Below, one piece after another: positions 37,182-53,801 of a DNA stretch of 64,000 nt (position 1 is its first letter; each line of letters starts with the position of its first letter). A program made the translations under genes and the position numbers. The stretch lies in assembly GCF_028471905.1 (NCBI RefSeq), contig NZ_CP116902.1:532501-596500 (forward strand). The letters are read 5' to 3'. Source of the DNA: Aneurinibacillus uraniidurans. Lineage in GTDB: Bacteria > Bacillota > Bacilli > Aneurinibacillales > Aneurinibacillaceae. Below the pieces are notes generated by a model that was not told the DNA's origin, ran no database searches, and saw only the letters and a program-made list of their open reading frames with translations.

Positions 37182-37320
37182 ATAAGTTGCAAAAAAAAAC
37201 CTATAAATATGTCTAAATTTTGAACATTATCCAGAAAAACTTCTTTTTTTCGCCAATATTCGATAGAATAAGAGCGTTGTTACGAGAGAGAAATAAAGGT
37301 GTGAAGTTACAAAAATTTAC

Positions 37321-37430
37321 TTGCCGAATTCACGTACTGTGAAGCGGGGGAAAGTATTTCTTTTGGGGTGAATCTGCGCATGCGGACAGAGACCTTATCC
37401 TCTGAACCCGTCAACTAACCTCGTAGGCTC
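37321..37430 (+). ncRNA. c-di-AMP riboswitch (ydaO/yuaA type)
   Basis: The sequence contains the conserved blocks of this class in order: TTGCCGAATTC, GCGGGGGAAA, TTTTGGGGTGAATC, and CTGAACCCGTCAACTAACC closed by TCGTAGGC. It lies directly before the NlpC/P60 gene. No T-rich terminator separates it from the ribosome site, so control may be translational or by early arrest. Confidence 0.93.
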
Positions 37431-37448
37431 GAAGGGAGTAAATCGTTC

Positions 37449-43881: not shown

Positions 43882-43956
43882 AAAAAAACCATCCTCAATA
43901 GGCGGTCTATGACCTCCTTCGCTTTAGCCGACGAAGTTAGCTGACGGGTAGGATGG
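43882..43956 (-). terminator. Expression-platform terminator of the kdp riboswitch
   Basis: On the minus strand AGGATGG (43889-43895) is followed by seven T. Its partner CCATCCT (43950-43956) lies inside the 3' part of the aptamer, beside the conserved ACCCGTCAGCTAAC block. Aptamer folding and terminator formation are therefore linked. Confidence 0.7.
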
Positions 43957-44058
43957 CGAAAGAGTATTCTCATCCCTCTCTGCAAAAGCAGAGATTAACC
44001 CCAAAAGATTGGTTCCTCCGTTCCCGGCGCGCCGGGACTAGGCCGAATATGCGGTTGC
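43927..44058 (-). ncRNA. c-di-AMP riboswitch (ydaO/yuaA type) upstream of kdpFABC
   Basis: Minus-strand blocks in order: CATATTCGGCCTAGTCCCGG, GAACGGAGGAACCAATC, TTTTGGGGTTAATC, a CTCTGC/GCAGAG stem, and CTACCCGTCAGCTAACTTCG closed by GTCGGC. They match the class consensus closely. c-di-AMP riboswitches upstream of kdp are known in the Bacillus cereus group; high c-di-AMP should stop kdp transcription. Confidence 0.93.
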
Positions 44059-44267
44059 TTCATGTGCTTAATTATACGAGCGGACTCGAATAAAAATAAA
44101 ACCGTGAATATGAGGAAAATAGGAACAAAAGCAATGATTTAGGCGGAAAAATGAGGATAAAATACTCGCAATCAAATGAAATCTCTTTTTTTTAGCGTTT
44201 TTTATCACTTTACAAAGTTCTAGCAGCGGGAGTAAGATACTACCATCATTTTAATACATATATCGTT

Positions 44268-44400
44268 AGATCGCTGAGTCCCGGATCGGGAACGGGGGAA
44301 CCAACTGTACAAGATAGATATTTGTACACGGGGTGAATCGCGGCAGAGCCGTGTAGGGTGACTTTTCACATCCGAATCCGACAGCTAACCTCGTAAGCGT
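44268..44400 (+). ncRNA. c-di-AMP riboswitch (ydaO/yuaA type) upstream of the DUF2294 gene
   Basis: Plus-strand blocks: TCGCTGAGTCCCGGATCGGG, ACGGGGGAACCAACTG, a TGTACA-type stem, CACGGGGTGAATCGCGGC, TAGGGTGACTTTTCACATCC, and GACAGCTAACCTCGTAAGCG. It ends ~7 bases before the ribosome site GGGGAGGAA, with no terminator between. It is arranged back-to-back with the kdp riboswitch, ~210 bases apart. Confidence 0.93.
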
Positions 44401-44419
44401 ATGGGGAGGAATTAGAGGA

Positions 44420-52197: not shown

Positions 52198-52533
52198 CTA
52201 CTGGGCTCGAATCGTGACTTGTGTACCGATTGGAACGATGGCTGCAAGCTGTAATACGTCGTTGTTGTACATGCGGATGCAGCCATGGGATACGAGGTGC
52301 CCGATTGACCACGGGGCATTTGTCCCATGGATGCCGTAATGCGGACGGCTGAGCCCCATCCACATCGCCCCGAATGGGCCTCCAGGGTTGGGAGCTTTGT
52401 TGATGATTGTGTATACACCAAGCGGCGTCGCTGTCAGGATTTTGCCGAGTCCTACCGGATAGGAGCGGATTACTTTGTTGTCTTGTAGGAGATGAAGTTG
52501 TCTTTGTTGCAAGGATATGATAATTGAGTACAT
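52198..52533 (-). CDS. L,D-transpeptidase (YkuD fold)
   Basis: A 111-residue enzyme made of a single YkuD domain. ATG 52533 is chosen because AGGTGAGAC lies just upstream; the longer frame adds nine residues without a site. The catalytic block is [13 protein letters not shown] (near 74) and [12 protein letters not shown] (near 90), with active Cys in SHGCIRM. It lacks signal peptide and LysM, like the short YkuD enzymes of spore formers. It should crosslink peptidoglycan or a spore-wall peptide. A second family member is cut by the right window edge. Confidence 0.9.
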
Positions 52534-52625
52534 ATGTCTCACCTGGATTATCGTATTCATGCAGGAAGTGCTGTGCTCCTACGAACTATTCCTTGGTGTA
52601 GTAGGTTTTCCAAAAGTGTGGTGGA

Positions 52626-52831
52626 GGAGCGGGATCAGGCGGGGCCTCGTCACTTCAGTATGCTTACAAAGAAGCGATGACTGTCCGCTCCAGGTGCCAG
52701 GCGAACTCGCCCACAAAAGAGGACCCACGATGTATTTGCATCGAAGCATTGTGGGCAAAAATCCGTTCACCTGGCCCCTTCCGCTGGGGAGTCGCATACA
52801 GGCGTTCCGTTGCCCCGCCCAATCCCGCTCC
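52626..52831 (-). ncRNA. Structured RNA candidate, 6S-like architecture
   Basis: A GC-rich ~206-base element with no gene. A ~20-bp closing stem pairs GGAGCGGGAT (52831 downward) and GGGCGGGGC with GCCCCGCC and ATCCCGCTCC (to 52626). A large central bubble follows, with a small hairpin on its 3' side (CAGTCATCGCTT with AAGCATACTG), then a terminal rod (CCAGGTG with CACCTGG; GCCCACAA with TTGTGGGC; GATGCAAATACATC tip). Length and plan fit bacterial 6S RNA, the RNA polymerase regulator. On the minus strand TTGCTT-N18-TATGCT abuts the 5' end as a promoter. I cannot prove 6S identity by sequence alone. Confidence 0.55.
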
Positions 52832-52886
52832 TAGCATACTTTGGTTAAACACTATCAAGCAATATCAAGAAGCAGCCTCTTTTGAT

Positions 52887-53801
52887 TTAGGTCGTAAGCT
52901 TTTGCTTTGAGCCCATCGTTTTTTGCCAAGTGTAATAATTGGTCAGGAATACCCCTGCAAGCACGACAGCTGCTCCGACAAGTGTGAATCCATGAACGGT
53001 TTCACCGAGCAGGAGATAGCCGACGATCACAGCGATTACCGGTGATACGTACGTCCATGTAGCAGGAAATAGCGGATTCGTAACTTTTACGAGCCAGTAA
53101 TAAATGCTTGAGGCAATCAGAGAGCCAAATACAATCATATACAGAAGCGGTAGAATAGCTTCTAGTGTGAGTCCAGTTGATGGAAGTGGATGGGGTTCGA
53201 ACCAGAATGAAAGAATAAAAAGAAACAAACTTCCTGAGAGCATCTGAACCCCGTTCATAACGGCGGGTGAAACACCGCGATCAATTACATGCCGAGCTTG
53301 CACAGTACCGAGTGCATAAAAAAACTCAGCGATCAAAATAATGACAACACCAATCAACCATTGCTTCGTTACGACCATACCTTTTGCAAGTTCAGGCCAT
53401 ACAATAAGAGCGACACCGACAAATCCGAGCAGCATACCGAGTTTCTCCACTTGCGGCACCTTTTTGCGATACACCATAACAGTTGTGATGGTTACCATAA
53501 GAGGAGTAGAGGCAGCAAGCAGAGCAGTGAAGCTCGAGGAGACGAATTGTTCTGCCCAGTAGACAGCAGCAAATTCAATTCCTGTCATGCATAGCCCAAC
53601 AGATGCCATCTCAAGATAGTCGCGCAGGCGGGACGGGAAGCGCTGGCGTCTGAACAATAAAAATAGCAGGATGAGCAGAGATGCCGTGGCAAAACGCGCT
53701 CCAGCGTACCAGAACGGTGAAAATCCAGCATTTAGCCCCAGCTTAATTCCGAGAAATGTAGTGCCATAAATGAGGCACATTAGTAGATAAGCAAACAACA
53801 T
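52887..53801 (-). CDS. EamA-family (DMT) transporter
   Basis: A 304-residue membrane protein with ten predicted spans and two EamA repeats (the first starts YLLMCLIYGTTFLGIKLGL, the second TYVSPVIAVIVGYLLLGE near residue 245). Such carriers export amino acids, nucleosides or metabolites; no substrate can be read. AAGGAGAGGAT precedes ATG 53801. It is divergent from the MocR-type regulator, 110 bases away, the usual layout for a transporter and its regulator. Confidence 0.9.
   Translation of the reverse strand: MLFAYLLMCLIYGTTFLGIKLGLNAGFSPFWYAGARFATASLLILLFLLFRRQRFPSRLRDYLEMASVGLCMTGIEFAAVYWAEQFVSSSFTALLAASTPLMVTITTVMVYRKKVPQVEKLGMLLGFVGVALIVWPELAKGMVVTKQWLIGVVIILIAEFFYALGTVQARHVIDRGVSPAVMNGVQMLSGSLFLFILSFWFEPHPLPSTGLTLEAILPLLYMIVFGSLIASSIYYWLVKVTNPLFPATWTYVSPVIAVIVGYLLLGETVHGFTLVGAAVVLAGVFLTNYYTWQKTMGSKQKLTT

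Follow-up and report, generated by a model that had tools for sequence, protein, structure and literature searches.

What is the compact GC-rich island that separates two minus-strand genes in the genome of Aneurinibacillus uraniidurans? The window, the whole 64,000-nt stretch of contig NZ_CP116902.1 analysed here (positions 532,501 to 596,500 of the forward strand), had been described in a first-pass annotation as holding an ORF-poor, structured RNA of about 206 bases, with a 6S-like plan and an adjoining minus-strand promoter or, failing 6S, a new structured RNA. The physical description stands: the rod lies between genes for a YkuD-type L,D-transpeptidase (52198–52560) and an EamA transporter (52887–53801), both on the minus strand, and its two arms (52625–52663 and 52794–52832) are 77% complementary across 39 nt. 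The minus strand of 52600–52860 folds at −123.7 kcal/mol (z −7.25, with 0 of 200 shuffles equally stable), and the plus strand alone is nearly equal (z −6.76), as is expected of a palindrome. A match to our covariance model R1 spans a 210-nt core, close to the size first proposed, and scores 228.4 bits (E 2.9e-58) with canonical bases at 42 of 42 model pairs, although score and pair count are not independent because the window sequence is in the model's own alignment. Two short motifs, AGCGGA and AGCGGACAG, are almost invariant among 41 aligned copies. The element is laid out as follows.

52591–52879, minus strand: whole inserted element, a solo A unit, delimited by the empty site in the congener G005
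52834–52879, minus strand: 5' outer end of the unit (the centre side in twin copies)
52624–52833, minus strand: structured RNA core, positions 1–210 of model R1, from the covariance-model match
52794–52832, minus strand: 5' arm of the closing stem, a 39-nt inverted repeat
52780–52785, minus strand: conserved AGCGGA on the 5' side, part in helix 4, part unpaired
52681–52689, minus strand: conserved AGCGGACAG on the 3' side, part in helix 4, part unpaired
52625–52663, minus strand: 3' arm of the closing stem
52591–52623, minus strand: 3' outer end of the unit

A hairpin of the GAGGCTGTCTC type, which many copies carry beyond the 3' outer end, is absent in the window.

The proposed 6S identity did not survive a covariance search with the 6S family (RF00013), in which nothing in the window reached the gathering score (46.4 bits) and nothing over 52500–52960 came up even at E ≤ 10. 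The genuine 6S genes are two and lie elsewhere in the genome, at C1:837414 and C1:1065209 (89.4 and 72.6 bits). No Rfam 15 family exceeds its gathering score at the window element, the sole Rfam match at 16 loci of other genera is an adjacent c-di-AMP riboswitch, and a group II intron is matched neither at the window element nor at those 16 loci. The adjoining promoter likewise failed to appear: a sigma-70-type scan of 52450–53000 returned 0 sites, with 0.4 expected. Elsewhere in the window, three c-di-AMP (ydaO) riboswitches occur within about 7 kb, at 43911–44054 (minus), 44262–44413 (plus) and 37312–37443 (plus), two of which stand back to back, facing away from each other across about 200 bp, and positions 1–1626 hold 18 closely packed tRNA genes (Rfam matches), of which the first is cut by the window edge.

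The locus is one of many. Among the best 40 of 71 blast candidates, at least 30 matches of at least 200 nt occur in the same genome at 82–100% identity, the window copy included; repeat searches scored 40 of 71 and 40 of 140 candidates, and the copy numbers are lower bounds. R1 finds at least 90 matches in the window's genome and at least 150 in G005; 6 are listed for G006 and 4 for G003, and G001, G002 and G004 have none among the 150 candidates scored in each. In G005 the window locus is an empty site, reading ACGAACTGTTTTTTGATTTAG where the window reads ACGAACTATT-[289 bp]-TTTTGATTTAG (locus alignment), and by comparison with it the insert is blunt, with no target duplication visible. At 13 sites where the sister genome is shorter, eight are empty, three hold remnants (L043, L091 and L096) and two hold another unit (L035 and L038); at seven of the eight empty sites a plain inverted repeat stands in the other genome, terminator-like in appearance on our reading of the alignments. 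The gap size at 11 or more further sites is that expected of a copy shared between the sister genomes. By a simple ORF caller of our own, the genes on either side are convergent at 39 of 81 sites, tandem at 38 and divergent at 4, and the element sits mostly beside gene 3' ends. It is short, non-coding, multicopy and lineage-specific in its sites, as a miniature inverted-repeat transposable element (MITE) is; blastn against phages and plasmids gave no match, and its exact pattern had 0 matches in viral contigs. We have little doubt that the locus is a mobile structured element and not 6S RNA.

Many copies belong to a larger design. The consensus of 37 copies is a composite of about 730 bp that runs from a terminator-like hairpin through arm B, a centre of about 100 nt and arm A to a second terminator-like hairpin; the two arms are about 70% identical and stand head to head, 5' end to 5' end. 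In the window only a single A arm is present. Among 67 cases in Aneurinibacillus in which neighbouring arms are less than 250 nt apart, 63 are divergent A/B pairs, 4 point the same way and there are no convergent ones. At these loci the GAGGCTGTCTC hairpin lies within 130 bp of an arm in 50 of 53 occurrences; it goes with the element, and a further forty stretches contain 22 occurrences, counted irrespective of element positions. A sigma-70-type promoter scan of a full twin returned 1 weak site, with 0.4 expected. Where the sister genome (L120, L149 and L146) is set against L043, L091 and L096, most of a twin has been deleted between the arms and the remnants are left.

If the rod acts as RNA, its helices should bear the mark of selection on one strand. 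In the alignment that we used for covariation (41 sequences: 21 A, 16 B and 4 of G006; MAFFT), 1717 cells were scored and 97.4% of them pair; the value is 89.5% in shuffles and does not exceed 50.8% once the structure is slid. Two-sided change occurs in 23 of 42 pairs. None of 500 shuffles reached any of five covariation measures, figures that are not probabilities because that alignment also supplied the structure and the copies share ancestry. Compensatory stem changes, whose lack in homologous regions had been named beforehand as grounds for refuting the first-pass annotation, are thus present, and together with homologues in other genera they support its fallback of a new structured RNA.

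The strand test defined the structure equally on both strands and counted all branches unless stated, over 70 A and 52 B near-full-coverage copies, with columns below 70% occupancy left out. On the outward-reading strand, A helix 112–126 has 39 WC>GU changes against 4 WC>AC, and B helix 89–103 has 33 against 4; terminal branches alone give 32 against 4 and 25 against 3. The asymmetry is weaker in the closing stems (G-U to A-C 57:20 in A, 30:14 in B) and no preference is seen in the outer tails, one of two internal controls (49:56 in A, 22:30 in B). The outer ends are under no constraint as a helix in A copies. The apical stretch, the other control, runs in the opposite direction (7:43 in A, 10:25 in B) and is unsupported as a helix. 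At unpaired positions C>U exceeds G>A little in A (94 against 75) and moderately in B (81 against 40). The two arms are on opposite strands, so neither DNA strand of the composite by itself fits both. When each copy is folded without an alignment, the sense strand comes out ahead for 64 of 70 A and 44 of 52 B copies, compared with only 21 of 53 sequences from other genera; G-U to A-C counts there are 43:41 in G069 copies and 44:20 in G240 copies. The G-U tolerance of the inner helices in Aneurinibacillus thus appears to point to RNA, a signal that is weak or absent elsewhere, and we judge selection at the RNA level to be likely.

How far does this RNA extend? R1 finds it in at least 50 of 398 genomes and 21 of 145 genera, the window's genome included and all within the class (E ≤ 0.01, about four chance matches expected, 6 candidates scored per genome). 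This survey misses carriers: G069, with dozens of copies, was not picked up. A broader model, R2, matched 20 of 20 held-out loci; applied to a phylum-wide sample of 398 genomes at E ≤ 1e-4 with strict filters, and 6 candidates scored per genome, it matched the window's own genome alone and 0 of the 397 others, however many carriers these include. E-values of both models are rough. All 53 other-genus sequences fold with 14–27 closing pairs, AGCGGA occurs somewhere in 38 of the 53, 46 have a motif of the GCGG(A/G)CA type, and their closing stems are well paired and differ from those of Aneurinibacillus. Judged by these model matches and predicted folds, a structured RNA family spans several families of Bacilli.

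Head-to-head twins recur in this wider set and are found in three genera. In genus g28, located with R2, a divergent head-to-head pair stands at 13 of 22 loci with 0 convergent; these pairs represent about nine independent sites by eye, one locus being present in four genomes and another in two. In G069 a head-to-head pair stands at 10 of 20 places (taken from 43 matches), and 16 neighbouring units there include 12 divergent and 4 convergent cases, the latter mainly within minus-plus-minus arrays. In G204 and G240, a divergent neighbour is present at 2 of 30 loci. Two G069 loci carry four-unit arrays in the order minus-plus-minus-plus (L296 666–1639 and L300 659–1634), and locus L205 has one at 1396–2764 in the order minus-minus-plus-plus.

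Where the element lands is most legible in G204 and G240. Among the 30 units for which we obtained loci (of 36 matches), 22 (6 of 10 and 16 of 20) have the same locus-specific hairpin as a direct copy on both sides; the scores of these 22 repeats beat all 870 cross-pairs, all form hairpins of 6 pairs or more, and 12 are identical. In G069, a member of that genus as well, a duplicated hairpin occurs at the outer edges of 4 of 11 twins or clusters (three score above the best of 110 cross-pairs and one ties with it) and at 0 of 9 single units. Some G069 loci share flanks, which takes the cross maximum to 108, so that over all 20 loci L303 alone passes the 99th percentile. The duplicated hairpin at these outer edges means that a twin can act as a single insert. 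No hairpin duplication was seen at the 13 twins of g28, and in 51 Aneurinibacillus composites the two flanks resemble each other little more than flanks paired across loci do (direct p = 0.046, inverted p = 0.33). The flanking hairpins look, by their appearance, like predicted terminators, and the simplest reading would be that the element inserts at a putative intrinsic terminator and duplicates the whole stem-loop. At the one locus tried in the hairpin-duplicating genus, synteny is broken and no empty site was found.

The ends of the units tell a more varied story. Read directly, units of G003 and G006 have ISL3-like inverted ends, GGSTC..ATCAAA..TGTGCTTGAC, and L017 has an 8-bp duplication, ATAAATAT, that is clear in none of the other five of the six loci read. 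Terminal inverted repeats were not seen on the window copy; the window's genome (G000) contains a degenerate ISL3-type insertion sequence (IS), a pseudogene, with 28-nt ends of similar style by eye. Insertion is blunt at the window; a target duplication is 8 bp long in L017 only, and hairpin-long and variable in G204, G240 and G069. The ends differ between lineages, so the conserved part is the RNA core and not one set of ends.

We found no mobiliser in the two places tried, the ISL3 element of G003 and a protein-coding version in G240. The former was rejected as autonomous parent: L150 has a decayed copy beside an ISL3 element whose ends are different. The search of G240 gave 34 matches to the end pattern against 4 for a reversed control. 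Of five such matches that R1 does not recognise, L276 holds a diverged member (70 bits with R2); it lies within a longer outer stem that has the usual ends and, on either side, a GC-rich hairpin, and L276 1140–1550 is possibly a nested unit. L282 is remnant-like, and R2 finds nothing in L291, L293 and L295. In G005, an IS110-family IS stands at the same point of the arm B loop in three separate copies, a target choice that looks as if set to the arm B repeat:

Locus L078 2997–4253, also loci L095 and L098 (genome G005): IS110-family IS in the arm B loop

The reading that we favour, and hold to be rather probable, is that the window contains one solitary copy of a mobile element that is non-autonomous and conserves a rod-shaped RNA of about 210 nt. 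Each unit would be transcribed outward from the centre, a putative protein partner would bind the conserved AGCGGA/AGCGGACAG region, and the resulting ribonucleoprotein may take part in copying the element or targeting it to intrinsic terminators. Such a role would explain why evolution keeps the RNA core and not one set of ends. That the RNA serves mobility rather than the host is a part of this to which we give somewhat less than even weight. A SINE-like bacterial element, steered to intrinsic terminators through an RNA or ribonucleoprotein step, with hairpin-duplicating insertion and twins from adjacent landings, strikes us as rather unlikely; there, cuts at both bases of the terminator stem-loop would leave the whole hairpin duplicated, and twins and minus-plus arrays would arise from copies landing beside a first one and then moving as a unit.

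The main rival, which we think unlikely, is a palindromic element at the DNA level, a MITE or giant REP-like sequence whose transposase reads a DNA hairpin or cruciform and whose RNA is incidental. A dispersed, non-coding, mobile element is what it predicts, and the inverted ends of the G003 and G006 units, the 8-bp duplication in L017, the degenerate ISL3-type IS with ends of the same style (compared by eye) and the alternating orientation, including the minus-plus-minus-plus arrays of G069, as in BIMEs, all fit. It sits poorly with nucleotides conserved across genera, with ends that are lineage-specific around a core that is kept, and with a single-strand G-U preference of the inner helices that falls on opposite chromosomal strands for A and B; the strand test speaks against it in Aneurinibacillus, but not decisively elsewhere.

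Rather unlikely is a multicopy RNA or 3'-end module useful to the host (a stabiliser, insulator or regulator between convergent genes) that mobility once spread. It would account for the excess of sites between convergent genes (39 of 81, only 4 between divergent ones), for pairing that is largely kept in orthologous copies of two species (13 pairs listed, with arms on both sides in 11 A and 8 B) and for the twin locus common, by eye, to four g28 genomes. It would not readily account for lineage-specific sites or for a copy number that within one genus ranges from 0 among 150 candidates in each of G001, G002 and G004 to at least 150 in G005.

Template switching, to which long inverted repeats are prone, could keep quasi-palindromes perfect without selection and make the apparent covariation mutational, and the three sister sites are remnants after internal deletion; we consider this very improbable, since the process predicts no conserved unpaired bases and none of the G-U/A-C asymmetry observed so far, and would keep the outer tail paired, whereas the A outer tail has 270 mismatched cells. 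A 6S RNA, or a 6S paralogue sequestering RNA polymerase, shares the size, closing stem, bubble and terminal rod of the element but is hardly credible for a mobile sequence in dozens of copies that Rfam's 6S model does not match, in a genome with two genuine 6S genes elsewhere.

Several known systems resemble the element favoured here, a mobile structured RNA, in part. Group IIC introns choose intrinsic terminators, as the element putatively does, and the element has no Rfam intron match at the loci searched. CRISPR integration duplicates a whole, often palindromic, repeat, to which the hairpin duplication at the element's insertion sites can be likened. REPs are tens of nucleotides long, a length that the 210-nt RNA does not fit. 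In the available part of one report, REP and BIME elements occur in high copy number and alternating orientation (PMC2817692), as the element does. The IS110-type insertions into the arm B loop are a further point of likeness to REPs. The bcr1–bcr18 repeats of the Bacillus cereus group are interspersed, some MITE-like and some transcribed with conserved secondary structure (PMC3446304), and are like the element by description alone; they are reported for B. cereus strains, and the accessible portion of that source does not mention twins or hairpin duplication. The mobile/repeat sequence candidate MRSC-65-2, as far as the accessible text of its report goes, is likewise structured and covarying, present in many copies and suspected to be selfish, with a conserved UYCCGG repeat and more than 20,000 representatives in diverse phyla (PMC11109978), whereas the element is a 210-nt rod with AGCGGA motifs found so far only in some Bacilli. 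Neither the element nor the duplication of a whole hairpin at an insertion site is described among the top-ranked matches of our literature search, in which subscription journals are sparsely covered, and the element is apparently undescribed.

Covariance models of this kind can annotate repeated intergenic DNA that, at the places tested, lies outside the families of Rfam 15. In small mobile repeats it is usually the ends that persist and the middle that is lost; here the reverse holds, with a 210-nt RNA middle kept across several families of Bacilli and ends that differ by lineage. If insertion does duplicate an entire hairpin of variable length, the choice of target would be an unusual one, and it offers a testable mechanism.
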